A model generated the notes under the pieces. That model ran no database searches and was not told the origin of the DNA. It worked only from the letters and a program-made list of their open reading frames with translations. A stretch of DNA of 21,954 bases, taken from the IMG/VR virus record IMGVR_UViG_3300037493_002207, positions 1-21,954 of that record. One strand, given 5' to 3'. Every line of letters begins with the position of its first letter. The first letter of the stretch is position 1. Positions 12,832-19,546 of this stretch are shown piece by piece. Both the position numbers and the translations under genes were made by a program. Source of the DNA: a virus.

Positions 12832-15800
12832 TCAATAGTACTCGAACGCAACATCTTGTTGCTTATCCTCTTCCATTAAATCCGTGCCTAAAGAAATAAA
12901 ATTACCCGCCCTAAATCGCATCATCGCTTGAACAAAACTGTCAACCAAATCGTCGTTGTCGCCTTTTGGGAATGCCGCGCATTCTTCCACTAATTCCTCT
13001 GCCCAGTCCGTGTCCGGGGCCCACACCATGCCTGACTCCAACATAGGGGCCACAGAATGCGCACGCGATACCTTGTCCTGCCCACTGCGTCGACCTCCTG
13101 GCGAATACATGGTCACAGGAATGCCCACCCTTCTCAACTCCTGCTGAAGCGTAATCCCTGTCGCTTTGGCCTCGATCAGCACATTGTCAGGCTTCCACAA
13201 GTCATACTGCTCCTTGGCAATACGTTTAAGTTCAGGAAAATCCCATCGCCCCTTTGTTACGTCCAACAAGATAATATTAGGCCCTGAGTCCACATCAGGG
13301 TAAAACACACCCCACGTCGTAATGGCAGAAAAGTCAGCCGTCTCTTTTTTAGAATAAGCAGTATCGTAGGACTGCATAACATATTCAACCTCTGGAGGCT
13401 CGTCCGAGGGCCATACTTTCCACCAATCCCGCTTCAATATAGCACCTTCATCATTAGTAGGCTGCTGTTGCCACTGGGCCTGCCACTTCTGCGGTGATAA
13501 AGAGGCTTTGACCGCGAGCAACTCTTCAAGCTTCCAGAACGTGGGCCACAAGGGATTGCCACTAGGCAAAATAGCAGGAAATTCAATGACCTCCCAGCGA
13601 TCGGCATTGTGACTCTTCTGCGCCTTGACAAGACGTGCACTTAAATCCCGGCTTGACCAGCGGGTCATGACTACGACTACGGCCCCTCCAGGCTGTAGCC
13701 GTTGACGAGGACCAGAAGTATACCATTCCCATGCGTTCTCCATGGCGAGCTCTGACAAAGCGTCCTGCTCCGAGTGCGGATCATCAATAATCAACAAGTC
13801 CGCACCACGGCCCGTCATCGCGCCTCCAACCCCACAGTTATGTGTCAATACACCTTCTGCAAAAAAGGTGTGATCACCGTCCGTCAAGAAGTTGATGAAT
13901 CCTTCCCCCTGGTGCGTGGTCCGTGAAACGTGACCCGCTAAACGTACTCCCAATAATAGCCCGCATAGGTCTTGCGTTGCTTTTCCAAGACCCGCCATAT
14001 CCCCTTTAAGGCCGCAACCGGTTTTGGAAAATGTTTTGATGCCTCGGACAAGGAGCTGTGCTGCCGCACAACGGATCCATCCAAGACCTTTTGGAGCACC
14101 ATACATTGAAAGTTCTTCTTCCTGTACTTCTGCTCGTCGAATGGATTGTGTTCCTTCTTCAAACGATACGCTACCGCTTCTGGGGTGATGCCCAGCTCTC
14201 TTGCTATTTGCGCTAACGTCTTCCCATCGATTGTTACATTGCCTCGTCGATTGTTGGACTGTTGAACAGGCGTCTCCCATCGACAATTGTCCGGGCTGTA
14301 AGGCCCATCGTTGTCTATTCGCCCAATCGTATGCAGAGGAGACGGTGGCTCTCCCATGTCTTCCAAGAAATTCTCGAAGACTAGCCAACGCTCGGATACC
14401 GTAATGCCTCGTCCCCCATAATTGTTCCACTTCTCGTTCTTGGGGTTTAAACAACGAGACTTCATGTTGTACCATCGCCGGTACAAAGGCGTGTTCCAAA
14501 TAGCCATAGGCCCTCCTTAGGTAAGCCTTTATTCTATTCAAAATACTCTCCACACACAATACATCCGTTGAATTAACATGGGCAGCGTATACCCAACCAC
14601 GGTTCATGGTCCAAATGGGATGGCTCGCGGAACAATCTAATCCTGCAATATTGAATGTCTCACTATGCTTGGAGTGATAAATCTTTTGCACCGTAACGGA
14701 CTTACCGCAGTTTAACAAAACATCACCTTCTTTAATCCTATCCGCGGATAAAGGACCACGGACCGTGCGTACTAAAGCATAAGGGCGCAGACAGGCAAAA
14801 TATTCCCCACCATGGTCCGTGTCCCACCGACCCGCGGCCTTGGAGTCTGCTCGAAGGGCCACATTTGAAAAGACCTGCTTGTATTCTTCAGAGTCCATCA
14901 GGTTACGCACCTTACGGCCGAACCGCACAGCAAGCTCTCCCGTGTGGGTCGCTTGAATAATCTTGGTTTTAGGCTTACGGCCCATGATAAAAGCGGGTAG
15001 CAGATAGGATGAGAACTCAGATTTGGTATTATGTGTTACAACCCACCCCCTACCCGCCATAAATAGCCCATCTGCATTATCTACCTCCAGACACTGCACT
15101 AATCCTGTTCTAGAGGTGCGTTTTATATCTATTGATCGACTCCAATTACCCTTTAGGGGCCTACACCTATCAGCTTTTCTAGGAATACGTGCAGCATTAG
15201 CAAGTTTGAACATGATCCTGTGTGATGGCTGGCTTGGTATACCTTTATAGTTTGTTTGCCGAGTTGTAATCCGCGCTTTTACCCCAAGGGAGTGGATAAG
15301 GCATAAGACCTGCTCAATTATCGCTAAATTGGTTTGATTGAACGTAACCTTGCCATCTTTTGTCACGTCACCATCTGTGTCAATTAACCCTTGAAGTAGT
15401 GCCATGCGCTGGGATACTGATGCACAAAGATAGGTTTCAGGTATATGCTTGTTTTTTAATACTCCTAACTCACGTAGCTGAGAGTGCAGTCCTAAAACAT
15501 TGAATTGCTGAAAATTTGGGTTGTGCGTTGTTGAGTACCCACAGGCTTCCACCTGTGCCCGCATCTGGGGCATGTCAGCAAAGGAGCATCCAATTGACGC
15601 GCCATACGAACTCCCGTCGCCTAGCCATACCCCCAGTATATAGGGGTCTACTAGTAACTCTGCTTCGGGGTATTGTGCGGCAGATTGTCTGGGAAGTATA
15701 GGACGATTCCCTAAGGCCCTCCAACCTTCTGTCTCTAGCTTGTGCAAGATTTCTATTGTAGAAAGAGTTTGATATGGGCGATTTGAACCAAAGCGTACAG

Positions 15801-16230
15801 TCCAAAGGTGCTCCCCATCACATTCAATTGTTTGCCCATCAGAAGTCGTAACTTCGTATAGCCTCTCCTCAAAAACTGCCGATTTTCCCGTAACGACTAC
15901 AGGACTTCCATCGGGGGAAAATACAACATCCCCGTTAACTACACTCTCAACTGTTTTCCACCCTTTAGTTGTAGGTATTGGTGTATTTAGGGTAAGCCGA
16001 TGCCTTGGAGGCATGTTTATTATTAATCTTTTCAAGGTCCCGTCTGCTAAACGGTTAAAGGCATCTGCCATTTTTTCATGGTGAGCGCCAAAGATTCCGT
16101 CAGGCCACATATATTTTGCAAAGGACATGAAGTCCATTTGCGATTTTTCCTGTGCTTCTAGTTGCAGTAGTCGAAGCTCTAATCTAGCCGCTTCAATAGA
16201 GGCTTGTTCAGCCGCAGGGGTGCTAAGCAT
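12832..16230 (-). CDS. terL: Terminase large subunit interrupted by two inteins (1132 aa precursor)
   Basis: This is the ATP-driven packaging motor and headful nuclease. The mature protein would be 489 aa from three exteins: residues 1-77, 402-479 and 799-1132. Once spliced, the Walker A reads MPPRHTKSEF, split between residues 77 and 402. Walker B is LLIIDDP (812-818), motif III MTRW (855-858). The RNase H-like nuclease carries YDTAYSKK with D956, E1020 in VLIEAKATG, and NDDLVDSF with D1094/D1097. Intein 1 is residues 78-401 and intein 2 is 480-798. AAAGAG precedes the ATG at a long spacing. An HNH gene lies out of frame inside intein 2. No small terminase subunit gene is visible in the window. 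Confidence 0.95.
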   Translation of the reverse strand: MLSTPAAEQASIEAARLELRLLQLEAQEKSQMDFMSFAKYMWPDGIFGAHHEKMADAFNRLADGTLKRLIINMPPRHRLTLNTPIPTTKGWKTVESVVNGDVVFSPDGSPVVVTGKSAVFEERLYEVTTSDGQTIECDGEHLWTVRFGSNRPYQTLSTIEILHKLETEGWRALGNRPILPRQSAAQYPEAELLVDPYILGVWLGDGSSYGASIGCSFADMPQMRAQVEACGYSTTHNPNFQQFNVLGLHSQLRELGVLKNKHIPETYLCASVSQRMALLQGLIDTDGDVTKDGKVTFNQTNLAIIEQVLCLIHSLGVKARITTRQTNYKGIPSQPSHRIMFKLANAARIPRKADRCRPLKGNWSRSIDIKRTSRTGLVQCLEVDNADGLFMAGRGWVVTHNTKSEFSSYLLPAFIMGRKPKTKIIQATHTGELAVRFGRKVRNLMDSEEYKQVFSNVALRADSKAAGRWDTDHGGEYFACLRPYALVRTVRGPLSADRIKEGDVLLNCGKSVTVQKIYHSKHSETFNIAGLDCSASHPIWTMNRGWVYAAHVNSTDVLCVESILNRIKAYLRRAYGYLEHAFVPAMVQHEVSLFKPQEREVEQLWGTRHYGIRALASLREFLGRHGRATVSSAYDWANRQRWALQPGQLSMGDACSTVQQSTRQCNNRWEDVSANSKRAGHHPRSGSVSFEEGTQSIRRAEVQEEELSMYGAPKGLGWIRCAAAQLLVRGIKTFSKTGCGLKGDMAGLGKATQDLCGLLLGVRLAGHVSRTTHQGEGFINFLTDGDHTFFAEGVLTHNCGVGGAMTGRGADLLIIDDPHSEQDALSELAMENAWEWYTSGPRQRLQPGGAVVVVMTRWSSRDLSARLVKAQKSHNADRWEVIEFPAILPSGNPLWPTFWKLEELLAVKASLSPQKWQAQWQQQPTNDEGAILKRDWWKVWPSDEPPEVEYVMQSYDTAYSKKETADFSAITTWGVFYPDVDSGPNIILLDVTKGRWDFPELKRIAKEQYDLWKPDNVLIEAKATGITLQQELRRVGIPVTMYSPGGRRSGQDKVSRAHSVAPMLESGMVWAPDTDWAEELVEECAAFPKGDNDDLVDSFVQAMMRFRAGNFISLGTDLMEEDKQQDVAFEYY
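13938..14507 (-). CDS. HNH endonuclease nested out of frame in intein 2 (189 aa)
   Basis: It lies on the same strand as TerL but shifted by one base. Residues 1-88 are an HNH domain: WYNMKSRCLNPKNEKWNNYG, GGRGITVSERW, then PLHTIGRIDNDGPYSPDN and CRWETPVQQSNNRR, with probable active residues His59, Asn74 and Asn85. Residues 91-118 (TIDGKTLAQIARELGITPE) form a helix-turn-helix. The C-terminus (LSEASKHF...YAGYYWEYV) resembles a NUMOD1 DNA-binding module. AAGGAGG lies four bases before the ATG, so it is translated on its own. Its likely target is the intein-free terL site. The overlap spans the place where an in-frame endonuclease domain normally sits. Confidence 0.93.
   Translation of the reverse strand: MAIWNTPLYRRWYNMKSRCLNPKNEKWNNYGGRGITVSERWLVFENFLEDMGEPPSPLHTIGRIDNDGPYSPDNCRWETPVQQSNNRRGNVTIDGKTLAQIARELGITPEAVAYRLKKEHNPFDEQKYRKKNFQCMVLQKVLDGSVVRQHSSLSEASKHFPKPVAALKGIWRVLEKQRKTYAGYYWEYV
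14512..14518 (-). promoter_or_regulatory. Shine-Dalgarno of the nested HNH gene
   Basis: AAGGAGG on the minus strand, four bases before the HNH ATG at 14505-14507. In the TerL frame the same bases encode part of LRRAYGY. It is the strongest type of site seen on this strand and is the main evidence that the HNH protein starts independently inside the terL message. Confidence 0.85.
15028..15999 (-). mobile_element. Intein 1 of TerL: class 3 intein with LAGLIDADG endonuclease
   Basis: Residues 78-401 interrupt the Walker A loop between H77 and T402. Block A begins RLTLNTPIPTTKGW, with Arg where most inteins have Cys or Ser. Block B is CDGEHLWTVR, with H141 and Trp143 at B:12. Block F has Cys380 (LVQCLEVDNADGLFM), and the end is VVTHN with Thr399, His400 and Asn401. 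These are the Trp-Cys-Thr residues that define class 3 inteins, in which the block F Cys replaces the missing residue-1 nucleophile. Two endonuclease motifs, ILGVWLGDGSS (Asp205) and LLQGLIDTDGDV (Asp286), look intact, so it is probably active for homing. The +1 residue is Thr402. Confidence 0.92.
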
Positions 16231-16310
16231 ATGTTTTCATTCTCTTTAATTTTTGTAAAAATTTTTCTAGCAATGGCTTTATTAAAACAAGGGGGCCTAT
16301 TTGTAGGGTC

Positions 16311-16340
16311 ATCATACCTCAATTTCGTTTGGAGTGCGAA
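16311..16340 (-). promoter_or_regulatory. Candidate sigma70-type promoter for the leftward structural unit
   Basis: Read on the minus strand, TTCGCA (16335-16340) is followed 18 bases later by TATGAT (16311-16316). The -10 matches five of six consensus bases and the -35 four of six. It would start an RNA near 16304 with a leader of about 74 bases before the terL ATG. The surrounding DNA is AT-rich. Confidence 0.4.
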
Positions 16341-16413
16341 AAACTGTGCAAAATCGGGCTAAGGTAAGCGGCAGGCCGGCGGGGGTGGGCGTTTTTGGGG
16401 TATGGGGTCTAGC

Positions 16414-16434
16414 GCGGGCCGTGGGCCGTGGGCC
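16414..16434. repeat. GGNCC heptamer cluster A (three units)
   Basis: Three consecutive heptamers of the form NNGGGCC (GCGGGCC, then GTGGGCC twice). The pentamer GGNCC inside each unit is its own reverse complement when the middle base is ignored, so the clusters can fold on either strand. Confidence 0.75.
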
Positions 16435-16470
16435 TTGCGGCCAGTGACTCTCCCCCACCTATGGCCGGCC

Positions 16471-16491
16471 GCGGACCGTGGACCATGGGCC
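16471..16491. repeat. GGNCC heptamer cluster B (three units)
   Basis: Three consecutive NNGGNCC units (GCGGACC, GTGGACC, ATGGGCC) end 10 bp before the iteron-like repeats. The NN dinucleotide varies while GG and CC are constant. Confidence 0.75.
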
Positions 16492-16500
16492 AGCTGTACT

Positions 16501-16560
16501 GTATACCGAGCTGTATACCCTTGACTATACCGAGCTGTATACGTATACCGAGCTGTATAC
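16501..16560. repeat. Iteron-like repeats, three copies
   Basis: TATACCGAGCTGTATAC occurs three times, at 16502-16518, 16526-16542 and 16544-16560. Copies one and three are within the full 18-mer GTATACCGAGCTGTATAC. Start-to-start spacings are 24 and 18 bp, and the segment reads as hexamer modules (GTATAC, CGAGCT). A degenerate half copy (AGCTGTACT) precedes it at 16492. Direct repeats of this size beside DnaA boxes are typical binding sites for a plasmid-type initiator, but no initiator gene is recognised in the window. Confidence 0.75.
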
Positions 16561-16562
16561 CC

Positions 16563-16583
16563 AAGGGCCAAGGGCCGCGGACC
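16563..16583. repeat. GGNCC heptamer cluster C (three units)
   Basis: AAGGGCC twice and then GCGGACC, between the iterons and the first DnaA box. The same pair AAGGGCC-AAGGGCC, next to a GCGGACC unit, reappears in cluster E in reversed order. Confidence 0.75.
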
Positions 16584-16591
16584 GAGAAAAG

Positions 16592-16677
16592 TTATCCACA
16601 ATTTAGGGCCATTGCCCGCGTAAGTTATCCACATTCTATCCACAGCGAATCCACAGGAAACGCACAGGATATCCACA
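16592..16677 (+). promoter_or_regulatory. DnaA-box array, probable replication origin
   Basis: Two perfect TTATCCACA boxes lie at 16592-16600 and 16625-16633. Further copies in the same orientation are at 16636-16644 (8 of 9 bases), 16647-16655 (7 of 9) and 16669-16677 (8 of 9), with a decayed copy at 16658-16666. All starts differ by multiples of 11 bp, close to one helical turn, so the sites would face the same side of the DNA. With the adjacent iteron-like repeats this has the make-up of a theta-type origin using host DnaA. Initiation here is inference. Confidence 0.75.
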
Positions 16678-16703
16678 AGGGGCCCTGTATGGTAGCATCA
16701 AAA

Positions 16704-16717
16704 ACGGGCCAAGGCCC
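16704..16717. repeat. GGNCC heptamer pair
   Basis: Two units, ACGGGCC and AAGGCCC, lie between the DnaA boxes and the operator-like dyads. This is the shortest of the clusters and could be coincidental on its own. Confidence 0.45.
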
Positions 16718-16757
16718 TCTAGCGTGCTTAAAAAGCGCCTTGCTGGGCATGCGAGTT

Positions 16758-16804
16758 TAAATGTTAGTAAGTACTCACTAACATTTAGGTTAGTGACCGC
16801 TAAC
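16758..16804. promoter_or_regulatory. Operator-like dyads with GTTAGT / ACTAAC half-sites
   Basis: An 11-bp inverted repeat, TAAATGTTAGT (16758-16768) with ACTAACATTTA (16777-16787), surrounds an 8-bp centre. A second dyad, GTTAG-TGACCG-CTAAC, follows at 16789-16804. Half-sites GTTAG/CTAAC thus occur four times in under 45 bp. This looks like a regulator-binding region placed between the origin and the early promoter. No U run follows, so a terminator is less likely. The regulator is not identifiable in the window. Confidence 0.55.
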
Positions 16805-16805
16805 A

Positions 16806-16820
16806 TAGGCCAGCGGCCTA
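16806..16820. repeat. Short perfect inverted repeat TAGGCC-AGC-GGCCTA
   Basis: A 6-bp stem with a 3-base centre. It carries GGCCAGC, the core of the hairpins found between the early genes, and may belong to the same family. Confidence 0.45.
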
Positions 16821-16833
16821 CCGGTAAAACTTC

Positions 16834-16854
16834 ACGGACCACGGCCCACGGCCC
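16834..16854. repeat. GGNCC heptamer cluster D (three units)
   Basis: ACGGACC followed by ACGGCCC twice. Here the middle base is A or C, showing that the fourth position before CC varies while the 7-bp period holds. Confidence 0.7.
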
Positions 16855-16875
16855 GCGTGTATCGCATCGCCGGCA

Positions 16876-16910
16876 ATGGCCCGCGGACCAAGGGCCAAGG
16901 GCCTTGGGAC
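16876..16910. repeat. GGNCC heptamer cluster E (five units)
   Basis: The longest cluster has five consecutive units beginning ATGGCCC and GCGGACC, then AAGGGCC twice, and a diverged last unit (TTGGGAC). It includes the palindrome CCAAGG-G-CCTTGG. Confidence 0.75.
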
Positions 16911-16956
16911 TGGTTATTATATAAGCGAGTATGTGAGCCTGCCGCCGGTAATTGGA

Positions 16957-16976
16957 CGCCGTGAGCGCGCACGGCG
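16957..16976. repeat. GC-rich hairpin upstream of the early promoter
   Basis: CGCCGTG (16957-16963) pairs with CACGGCG (16970-16976) around AGCGCG. It lies about 60 bp before the candidate early promoter. No U run follows it on the plus strand. Confidence 0.45.
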
Positions 16977-17038
16977 GGGCCTTCGTGGGCATGCTGGCCA
17001 GTGTTATATACAGCGGGTAACCGGCGCGTAAAAAAAGC

Positions 17039-17067
17039 TTGCAAGGTTTAATAATATCGGTTCTAAT
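17039..17067 (+). promoter_or_regulatory. Candidate sigma70 promoter for the rightward early unit
   Basis: TTGCAA (17039-17044, four of six consensus bases), a 17-base spacer, and TCTAAT (17062-17067, five of six). Transcription would start near 17074, at the left edge of the dyad at 17075-17091, and about 45 bases before the ardC ATG. Confidence 0.5.
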
Positions 17068-17074
17068 ACTCATT

Positions 17075-17091
17075 CCACGCCGCCGGCGTGG
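17075..17091 (+). promoter_or_regulatory. Dyad at the early transcription start
   Basis: CCACGCCG and CGGCGTGG flank a single C. At the predicted +1 it could be an operator for a repressor, or form a stable 5' hairpin on the early mRNA. It precedes the ardC ribosome-binding site by 10 bp. Confidence 0.5.
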
Positions 17092-17118
17092 GCATACAGA
17101 AGAAAGGGGCAAGCCAAA

Positions 17119-17988
17119 ATGAGCAATCCTATATATAAACAAGTAACCGACGCCATCATCGCCGAGCTAGAAAAGGGCGCGGCGCCTTGGGTAAAACCAT
17201 GGCACGCGGACGCAATGAACGGCGGCGCGGACCATAACATCGTGAGCGGCGCGGCTTATCGCGGCGTCAATCGCTTAATCTTAGGCATGGCCAGCATGGG
17301 CCGTGGCTACAATGCGGCGCAATGGGCGACTTATAAACAATGGCAAGACCGCGGCGCGCAAGTGGCCAAGGGCGAGAAGGGCACGGCCATTTGCTTTTAT
17401 AAGCCCGTGGCCGGCACCGTCGACGCTATGACCGGCGACAAGACAAGCGGCTATGCAATCTTAAAAGCTTATAGCGTGTTTAACATCGAGCAAACCGACG
17501 CCGAGCGCGCACCGGCGGCCGAGCCCGTGACCGAGGCATTCGACGCAAGCGAGCAATGCGAGGCGGCCATAGTTAAAACCGGCGCCATTATCAGACACGG
17601 CGGCGACGCGGCTTTTTATATGCCGAGCACGGACGCCGTGCAATTACCTAATAAAACAAGCTTCGACACGGCCGCGCATTATTACGCCACGGCCTTCCAT
17701 GAGCTCACTCACTGGACCGGCGCTAAGCATCGACTAGCGCGCGACCATTCCGGCCGCTTCGGCAATCCTGCGTATGCATTCGAAGAGCTCATCGCGGAAA
17801 TTGGCGCGGCCTATCTATGCGCCGATAATGGCATCGCTGGCGAGCTTCGACACGCCGGTTATATTGGGCACTGGCTAAAGGCCTGCCGCGACGACGAGAC
17901 CGCCATATTCAAGGCGGCGGCAATGGCACAAAAAGCCGCGGACTTTATCAAGGGCACGGCGGCAGACGCCGAGGCCGAGGCGGCATAA
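17119..17988 (+). CDS. ardC: ArdC-like antirestriction protein (289 aa)
   Basis: The N-terminal domain (residues of about 4-125) is the ArdC ssDNA-binding fold: YKQVTDAIIAELEKGAAPWVKPW, YRGVNRLILGMAS, WATYKQWQDRGAQVAKGEKG. The C-terminal domain is a zincin: HELTHWTGAKHRL (His194, Glu195, His198) with FEELIAEIGAAYLC (Glu223/224) downstream as likely third ligand. ArdC homologues from conjugative plasmids protect incoming DNA from host restriction, and the length of about 290-300 aa matches. AGAAAGGGG precedes the ATG. It is the first gene of the rightward unit, fitting an early anti-defence role. Family assignment is firm; action in this phage is inferred. Confidence 0.92.
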   Translation: MSNPIYKQVTDAIIAELEKGAAPWVKPWHADAMNGGADHNIVSGAAYRGVNRLILGMASMGRGYNAAQWATYKQWQDRGAQVAKGEKGTAICFYKPVAGTVDAMTGDKTSGYAILKAYSVFNIEQTDAERAPAAEPVTEAFDASEQCEAAIVKTGAIIRHGGDAAFYMPSTDAVQLPNKTSFDTAAHYYATAFHELTHWTGAKHRLARDHSGRFGNPAYAFEELIAEIGAAYLCADNGIAGELRHAGYIGHWLKACRDDETAIFKAAAMAQKAADFIKGTAADAEAEAA

Positions 17989-17996
17989 TCTAACAC

Positions 17997-18016
17997 CGGC
18001 GGCCAGCTGGCCGCCG
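17997..18016 (+). repeat. 20-bp perfect palindrome between ardC and the 90-aa gene
   Basis: CGGCGGCCAGCTGGCCGCCG is fully self-complementary. It lies 8 bp after the ardC stop and just before the next Shine-Dalgarno. No U run follows, so it is not a standard terminator. It shares GGCCAGC with the hairpins at 18681 and 19104. Confidence 0.8.
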
Positions 18017-18039
18017 CAACTTAAGAAAGGGATTTTATT

Positions 18040-18312
18040 ATGACTGCATTTAATTTATGTTATACCGTTTTACTGGGCAAGCCTGCCGGCGCCAATATTG
18101 GCATAATCAAACACGGCGAGCGCGGATATCATGCGACCAATTTAGACTGGGGCGACGGCGACGAGGCGGCGGCAATCGTGCGCGAGGCCAACGACGCGCG
18201 CGGCATCGACGCGGCGACGCAATTAGACTTCGAGATTAAATCAATGTTTATATGGCCGCGCGACGAGTGGCAAGCGGCCGGTGCGCGGGCCGAGCGCGAG
18301 GCGGCCATATGA
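18040..18312 (+). CDS. Acidic protein of unknown function (90 aa)
   Basis: AGAAAGGGA stands about eight bases before the ATG. The N-terminal half contains NLCYTVLLGKPAGANIGIIK, the C-terminal half is acidic and helical (DEAAAIVREANDARGID, WPRDEWQAAGARAE). There is no membrane segment or known motif. Its stop overlaps the next start as ATGA, indicating coupled translation. No family is recognised; the position suggests an early host-takeover or regulatory function. Confidence 0.7.
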   Translation: MTAFNLCYTVLLGKPAGANIGIIKHGERGYHATNLDWGDGDEAAAIVREANDARGIDAATQLDFEIKSMFIWPRDEWQAAGARAEREAAI

Positions 18313-18671
18313 ATCAGTCAACCATAATCAAGCGCCTTCAGGCGCGAGCGCTGGCCAAGTATAACCAAGGATGGGACACTTTCGTCGAATGCTACGAGCT
18401 GGCGGACTGGCTGGCCTTTACGACCAATGACGACACCGGCGAGCCCATGACATGGCGCGAGGCGCTGGCACTGGCCGAGACATGCGCGAGCGTATGGCGT
18501 GAGCGCGCGGCCGAGGCGGCAAGGTATCGCGACGAGTGGCAAGCGGCCGAGGCGCGCGAGCCGGCCGAAGGGCCAGCGATGGCAGACGATGGCGGCGACT
18601 GGGACGACGACGGGCCACGCGAGCCGCTGGAATTCATACCGCATGCCGGCGATTATTCAAAATTCGATTAA
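18309..18671 (+). CDS. Acidic protein of unknown function (120 aa)
   Basis: The start MNQSTIIKRLQARAL at 18309 is chosen because it overlaps the preceding stop by 4 bp; an upstream in-frame ATG would reach into the 90-aa gene and encode an unrelated Arg-rich stretch. ALAKYNQGWDTFVECYELADW is a small-helix motif resembling other phage and plasmid proteins I recall. The C-terminus is strongly acidic (DDGGDWDDDGPREP). The function is unknown. Confidence 0.7.
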   Translation: MNQSTIIKRLQARALAKYNQGWDTFVECYELADWLAFTTNDDTGEPMTWREALALAETCASVWRERAAEAARYRDEWQAAEAREPAEGPAMADDGGDWDDDGPREPLEFIPHAGDYSKFD

Positions 18672-18680
18672 CTAAACCAT

Positions 18681-18700
18681 GGCGGCCAGCGATGGCCGCC
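18681..18700 (+). repeat. Intergenic GC hairpin 2
   Basis: GGCGGCCA (18681-18688) pairs with TGGCCGCC (18693-18700) around GCGA. It lies between the 120-aa and 117-aa genes, followed by the Shine-Dalgarno GGAGGT. It is close in sequence to the palindrome at 17997, with a four-base loop in place of a fully self-complementary centre. Confidence 0.75.
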
Positions 18701-18721
18701 GCTTAAACTGGAGGTATTATC

Positions 18722-19075
18722 ATGAAATTATTAAACGAGCTAAGACAAGCGGCGCCGGAATTCTTCGAGGCCCACGAGGCCAACAAGCGAGCACTGGCGG
18801 CGCTGGATGGCGTGCTATTGGGCCAAGGCCACATAATCATAGTGGGCGACATAGCTATGAAGCCCGAGATGGTACGCGAGGCCGGCGGCTGGCGTATGGT
18901 AGACGCGAGGCCGTGCAAGCTGGCCGAGGCGCCGCAATATTCCAAGGGCGCCGCCGAGATGCTGGCGGCCGAGATGGTGAACGGCAACGACGAGCGCGGC
19001 CGCGCCGTGCATATTCGCGAGGCGCTGGGCAATGCCATAGCGGCAACCGAGGCAATTATAAAAAGCTTGCACTGA
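18722..19075 (+). CDS. Protein of unknown function (117 aa)
   Basis: GGAGGTATTATC precedes the ATG. The N-terminal helix (MKLLNELRQAAPEFFEAHE) is followed by LLGQGHIIIVGDIAMKPE, a short beta segment, and a helical C-terminus (IREALGNAIAATEAIIKSL). It is hydrophilic and probably cytoplasmic. No catalytic motif or family is recognised. Reverse-strand and shifted frames across it are open because of the high GC content but lack ribosome-binding sites. Confidence 0.7.
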   Translation: MKLLNELRQAAPEFFEAHEANKRALAALDGVLLGQGHIIIVGDIAMKPEMVREAGGWRMVDARPCKLAEAPQYSKGAAEMLAAEMVNGNDERGRAVHIREALGNAIAATEAIIKSLH

Positions 19076-19103
19076 CTTAAATTTTAGGATTACAATCACA
19101 ACC

Positions 19104-19127
19104 AGCGGCCGGCGATGGCTGGCCGCT
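19104..19127 (+). repeat. Intergenic GC hairpin 3
   Basis: AGCGGCCGGC (19104-19113) pairs with GCTGGCCGCT (19118-19127), with one G-T position that would be a G-U wobble in RNA and a GATG loop. It lies in front of the Shine-Dalgarno of the 129-aa gene and belongs with the hairpins at 17997 and 18681. Confidence 0.7.
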
Positions 19128-19156
19128 CAATCATACAGATAGAAAGGGACGACATC

Positions 19157-19546
19157 ATGAGCACTAGAGGCCTATATACATTTAAAGACAACGACGGCGA
19201 TTACACCGTTTTTAAGCATTGGGATAATTATCCAACCAGTTCGACCGGCTATGGCGCGCATTTATTTATTGCCAACGCCTTGGCCTATGCATGGCAATTG
19301 CCACGCTTCGAAGCCGACGAATTCGCCGCTTCATTCATAGCGGCCAACAAGAAAGCCGGCGGCGGCGACTTAAGACTATTGCAGGCCGAAGCGATTAACG
19401 GCGATGCGCTGGGCGTGGAGTATTGGTATACCATCGAGGCCGACGGCCAGCGGCTTAAAGTATCATGCCGTGATATCTATCAAGGCGTGGACTTAGAGCC
19501 CGTTTATATTTCTGCACAATCAACCCAAAAAAGAAAGGCGGCTTAA
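19157..19546 (+). CDS. Conserved plasmid/phage protein beginning MSTRG (129 aa)
   Basis: The start at 19157 (MSTRGLYTFKDNDGDYTVFK) is preceded by AGAAAGGGA; an ATG 14 codons upstream would take in hairpin 3 sequence. HWDNYPTSSTGYG and LPRFEADEFAASFIAANKKAGG are recurrent in a family of phage and plasmid accessory proteins that I recognise without a known function. It is soluble, with no signal peptide. It lies 2 bp before the 68-aa gene. Confidence 0.75.
   Translation: MSTRGLYTFKDNDGDYTVFKHWDNYPTSSTGYGAHLFIANALAYAWQLPRFEADEFAASFIAANKKAGGGDLRLLQAEAINGDALGVEYWYTIEADGQRLKVSCRDIYQGVDLEPVYISAQSTQKRKAA

Follow-up and report, generated by a model that had tools for sequence, protein, structure and literature searches.

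Phased DnaA-box array between the diverging transcription arms of a group of environmental bacterial viruses

The window, by which the whole analyzed stretch of 21,954 bp of a virus record is meant, contains an intergenic region of 888 bp (16231..17118 in the ORF list), which occupies the same place in the relatives. Two transcription arms diverge from it, namely, a leftward terminase arm (TerL, 12832-16230, minus strand) and a rightward operon headed by an ArdC-type anti-restriction gene (17119-17988, plus strand), and an array of DnaA boxes is located at the switch between these arms. Two operator-like dyads (GTTAGT...ACTAAC; AATGTTAGTAAGTACTCACTAACATT and GGTTAGTGACCGCTAACAT), which are inverted repeats present in most relatives, were found to the right of the array (16758..16808), and a similar operator-like dyad was found to its left in several relatives. 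The distance from the array to the ArdC gene ranged from about 460 to 890 bp across relatives. The array is flanked on both sides by clustered heptad-like GGNCC repeats (CGTGGGCCGTGGGCC and its complement; window positions 16411-16910). TerL of the window comprises 1132 aa versus 489 aa in close relatives; since the longer protein carries LAGLIDADG/homing-endonuclease domains, it is interrupted by one or more inteins.

Sites of the TTATCCACA type start at 16592, 16625, 16636, 16647, 16658, and 16669, all of them on the plus strand and offset by multiples of 11 bp, with 0, 0, 1, 2, 4, and 1 mismatches to TTATCCACA, respectively; with nine-base boxes, this pitch of about one turn of the DNA leaves gaps of 2 bp. 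Box 1 (16592..16600, slot 1 of the 11-bp register) and box 2 (16625..16633, slot 4) match TTATCCACA exactly and are invariant in eight of the eight haplotypes described below. Box 3 (CTATCCACA, 16636..16644, slot 5) and the weak box in slot 6 (GAATCCACA, 16647..16655) are conserved in position, their counterparts being TCATGCACA or CCATGCACA in some relatives for the former and TTATCCACA or TTATCCTTA for the latter. The site in slot 7 (AAACGCACA, 16658..16666) is hardly a DnaA box by its sequence and is identical in 8/8 haplotypes, while the box in slot 8 (ATATCCACA, 16669..16677) is invariant in all of them; the invariance of both slots is partly a matter of search selection, because some of the contigs were retrieved via the 3′ part of the array itself (the 20-mer of slot 7 served as the search pattern) and others via ArdC or TerL. 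As a control, first-order Markov sequences of the window length were generated, 400 with the composition of the window and 400 with that of the intergenic region. Four boxes with no more than one mismatch shared one 11-bp phase within 86 bp of the window, the maximum in the 800 random sequences being two, and the phased score at no more than two mismatches was 11 in the window versus a shuffle maximum of 3. The phased array is real, and the claim of the sequence-only reading that the boxes stand in one orientation at an 11-bp phase beyond chance was borne out, the arrangement never being matched in the random sequences.

The array was present in ten related contigs (L006-L009, L011-L013, L015, L089, and L090), which together with the window represented eight distinct haplotypes, all in one register and with the 86-bp geometry kept. 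A loss of this spacing in relatives had been named beforehand as an outcome that would count against the array, and the spacing proved to be preserved. When the window was aligned with six relatives (L011, with its partial array duplication, was set aside), no indels were found within the 86 bp, versus 1.17 and 0.92 per 100 aligned site pairs in the left and right flanks, respectively; pairwise counts of this kind are not independent of one another, although the contrast is a direct one. The 24-base spacer that separates box 1 from box 2 (16601..16624) and holds them exactly 33 bp (3 × 11) apart was the most variable part of the region, with a mean pairwise divergence of 41% versus 25–27% in the flanks, and its length was constant; therefore, it is the spacing and not the sequence that is selected, and the 2-bp gaps of the array are held by selection as well. 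Exact copies of TTATCCACA in six related records (54, 61, 25, 19, 11, and 10 kb) were confined to the array cluster and to one strand. The partial duplication of the array in L011/G001 (35635-35802) contains one interval of 12 bp instead of 11, that is, one extra base.

The distribution of the array was patchy. Among the 71 TerL loci compared, exact boxes were found upstream of TerL in all nine with TerL at least 95% identical and in none of the 62 with TerL 74–84% identical (up to 2.5 kb upstream examined); in 11 of the latter examined for 11-bp arrays of other motifs, none was evident, and different repeat words were present instead. Neither an exact box nor an array was detected in phage DSL-LC04, with polymerase and portal identities of 78% and 73%, or in Pelagibacter phages HTVC023P and HTVC027P. 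DnaA-box clusters were found within the few kb upstream of TerL in the more distant relatives L117, L119, L150, L211, L216, L220, L333, and L337 (TerL identity of about 56–66%), for the most part on the strand that does not encode TerL, which is also the case in the window; these relatives were chosen for paired or triple boxes and show recurrence rather than frequency. Greater stability than this patchy distribution shows would be expected of an indispensable origin, unless origins turn over in the region.

Similar arrangements were found in other viral sequences. For same-strand TTATCCACA pairs no more than 33 bp apart, in the first 120 loci listed in IMG/VR, the consecutive spacings were concentrated at 11 (35), 12 (37), 13 (12), 20–22 (40), and 32 bp (10), and none was 10, 15, 16, 27, or 28 bp; this pattern is the periodicity of the DNA helix, with 12 bp as common as 11 bp for these exact pairs. 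The triple TCCACA at 11 bp was present in at least 119 viral contigs versus 9 at the control pitch of 13 bp. Removal of shared sequences left 67 viral arrays, five of which were inside a predicted gene, and 15 of the 33 arrays with both flanking genes called were located between diverging genes. Terminases were most often the gene neighbors of these 67 arrays, with a few O-like, DnaD-like, or Rep3 initiators, and no decisive association was found among them. Half of the viral set was selected for 11-bp triples, only the pair-spacing count being unbiased on pitch, and prophages or plasmids may be present among the contigs of IMG/VR. Genes neighboring oriC (dnaA, dnaN, recF, rpmH, gyrB, or yidC, scanned within no more than 8 kb per locus) occurred in 1 of the 235 viral loci, and mis-binning of chromosomal oriC was rejected on this ground; among the listed bacterial matches to three exact boxes at the 11-bp pitch, 57 of 118 loci carried such genes, so that this triple pitch marks chromosomal origins. 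The viral arrays with three or more boxes (128, mutual relatives included) had no AT-rich flank as a class, unlike 54 dnaA- or dnaN-linked chromosomal arrays, in which it was present. In a 3.8-kb symbiont plasmid (L458, Candidatus Pantoea edessiphila plasmid pSOE2), four exact triple-box matches at the 11-bp pitch were found.

DnaA is usually discussed as the initiator of the chromosome and, in the phage cases met here, as a helper at the plasmid origin of P1. The 86-bp element is most economically regarded as a docking platform for host DnaA, and it very probably binds this protein. Several like-oriented boxes, including high-affinity ones, are present in it, as in an oriC. It resembles the left and right DnaA-oligomerization regions of E. 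coli oriC, in which a strong anchor box or boxes and weaker boxes have one orientation and 2-bp gaps (PMC6070618, PMC10316083); each gap region there contains four low-affinity sites 2 bp apart, which are filled from the neighboring strong boxes (PMC6070618). Boxes 3-5 of Thermotoga maritima oriC are likewise like-oriented with 2-bp gaps, an optimum for T. maritima DnaA, whose two-DnaA complex was maximal on like-oriented boxes at this distance (PMC10316083). By analogy, the 11-bp pitch should favor head-to-tail DnaA, and the array would work like an arm of the oriC oligomerization region. The two strong boxes would anchor host DnaA, and ATP-DnaA would be added head to tail over the weaker same-strand sites at 11-bp steps, as on the chromosomal oriC arms, probably in a cooperative assembly; the oligomer would recruit the host replicative helicase DnaB onto the phage DNA, on which the DNA polymerase and primase of the phage itself would then work. 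Unlike E. coli oriC, the phage array consists of one arm only, has two strong boxes 33 bp apart and no adjoining AT-rich unwinding element, and is carried by a phage without dnaA; in T. maritima oriC, a DUE with TAG trios is located beside the boxes, whereas none was found at the phage array.

Replication start through such recruitment of DnaA and DnaB is the most likely use of the array, although it can be proposed only tentatively, and we infer it in preference to a decoy. It is favored by the exact consensus boxes in a non-random phase, the conserved weak sites, the oriC-type gap with its optimum in DnaA pairing, and the pitch shared with chromosomal origins and hardly ever accompanied by oriC-neighbor genes in viral loci. 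The complete absence of indels despite the divergence of the spacer, the confinement of all exact boxes to one cluster on one strand in records of up to 61 kb, and the position at the switch of the two arms point in the same direction. The gene content of the relatives is consistent with this use. Of two such relatives, G001 comprises 54 kb, and G002 is a complete circle of 60,968 bp, its 61,095 bp including a terminal overlap of 127 bp. They encode a family-A DNA polymerase, an AEP-type primase, a UvrD/Dda-like SF1 helicase, an SNF2 helicase, and an exonuclease, as well as Pam3 gp33/gp34-like proteins, but profile searches of G000-G004 revealed no DnaB_C, Rep3, integrase, Bac_DnaA, ParA-type AAA_31, or IstB/DnaC; the controls matched as expected, and the coverage of Rep proteins and helicase loaders was that of the families named (Rep3 and IstB/DnaC). 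For a phage that has a polymerase and a primase and in which neither a replicative helicase nor a loader can be recognized, it would be an advantage if DnaA directed the loading of host DnaB.

Several results stand against use as a replication start. Neither an AT-rich unwinding element nor a DnaA-trio is present beside the array; the DNA is least stable in the conserved terminase leader, about 275–360 bp to the left of the array, and the viral arrays as a class lack the AT-rich flank seen in dnaA/dnaN-linked chromosomal arrays. Phage DSL-LC04, despite its related polymerase and portal, has no exact box, and neither do the 62 relatives with TerL 74–84% identical in the upstream stretches described above. 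The GC-skew check proposed for placing the origin was run on the complete relative and marked none: the skew follows the gene strand, because of which it cannot place an origin and was rejected as a marker. Thus, of the origin proposed in the sequence-only reading, the DnaA boxes, their non-random helical phase, and the conserved spacing remain, the plasmid-type iteron component does not, and an origin function is plausible.

A role as a DnaA decoy or inactivator similar to E. coli datA is possible but rather unlikely. As the copies of the phage increase in number, their arrays would bind up ATP-DnaA or cause it to hydrolyze its ATP, the host chromosome would start no further rounds of replication, and nucleotides and replisome parts would be left to the phage. 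Such a role would agree with the accessory distribution of the array, which is confined to one TerL clade (at least 95% identity) and absent in the sister clades and DSL-LC04, with its adjoining an accessory operon headed by the anti-restriction gene, and with the lack of an adjacent unwinding element both here and in the class. The make-up is datA-like in its boxes: datA is a non-coding locus for which no unwinding element is known, and two of its boxes are consensus ones, while four have one misfit each (PMC5835720); the array is likewise a non-coding cluster of two consensus and one-mismatch boxes without a DUE. However, the rigid 11-bp phase and the invariant very weak site would be unneeded for simple titration, and datA requires an IHF site between its DnaA boxes (PMC4585315).

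It is improbable that the array is a DnaA-controlled transcription switch, in which DnaA bound between the diverging arms would repress or activate transcription of the early (ArdC) or the late (terminase) arm, depending on the level of ATP-DnaA in the host. The divergent intergenic position, shared by nearly half of the scored viral arrays (see above), and the operator-like dyads nearby are in line with such control, whereas the variable distance between the array and ArdC in the relatives indicates no fixed promoter geometry, and the single weak promoter-like match in the region is at about chance level.

The suggestion that the boxes and upstream direct repeats form an iteron/DnaA origin of a theta plasmid, i.e., of a phage-plasmid replicon, is very improbable. 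Three direct repeats are indeed present (16501..16562, plus strand, copies at 16501, 16525, and 16543), with a size and a distance close to those claimed (20 bp in length, with 29 bp left between the last copy and box 1, versus 17 bp and 32 bp), and phage P1 offers a precedent, its oriR being phage-borne, with tandem DnaA boxes united with RepA iterons. However, in alignments with the window, the repeats were absent from all relatives; they are an insertion in the window alone, outside the conserved element, so that the iteron reading was rejected as largely refuted. The Rep3 (PF01051), ParA, DnaA, and integrase families were not found in the relatives (five records, including the complete G002), leaving no cognate Rep3 gene, and blastn revealed no plasmid match to the array region, while megablast revealed no phage match to the whole window. 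In addition, the pitch of the two abutting boxes in P1 is 9 bp instead of 11, and these boxes function together with RepA and iterons. The array is filed neither as an oriC nor as an iteron origin because an unwinding element and Rep/iteron features were sought and not found. As for a chance or low-complexity artefact of a region rich in other repeats such as the GGNCC heptads, it is next to impossible, given a phase unreached in 800 random sequences and the absence of indels among the compared haplotypes, and it is ruled out by conservation.

The array in this group of environmental bacterial viruses suggests docking of host DnaA, either to copy their own DNA or to deprive the host. With a conserved, selected oriC-style array in these phages and the same pitch recurring in other viral contigs, host DnaA can be put to the test as a target of phage takeover, and the arrays also offer natural DNA in which the assembly of DnaA is kept apart from unwinding. 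Many phage lineages could have independently evolved oriC-like DnaA filaments that are in helical phase and lack an unwinding element, for DnaB loading or ATP-DnaA capture, a suggestion made with some reserve; if true, it would be a general way to load host DnaB without a phage initiator or to halt host replication by capturing ATP-DnaA. Little was found in the literature on phage DnaA-box arrays, with subscription papers mostly outside the search, and their absence from it is thus not proven; an Ori-Finder prediction is available for one Pseudomonas phage (PMC11512268).

A block (CAAGGGGGCCT...GTGCGAAATCGGGCTAAAGC; 16285-16360) lies beside the TerL start, occupies the same place in L363-L421, and is recognizable in several relatives down to a TerL identity of 76%, where its surroundings are all changed; it is possibly a packaging site or a late promoter. 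The region upstream of TerL in relatives with TerL 74–84% identical (e.g., L365, L388, L417, L418, and L421) is GC-rich (often 58–72%) and fast-changing, and lineage-specific words, namely, GGCCACG heptads, CTCGAGGATCGC units, and TATACCCCCCGGGGTATA palindromes, occur there in such relatives. In DSL-LC04, ArdC is not annotated, and a rightward operon is absent from the corresponding place. The GC content at the start of the ArdC operon (window positions of about 16300-19500) is 52–61% versus 42–50% across most of the phage, and this part may be an acquired module.
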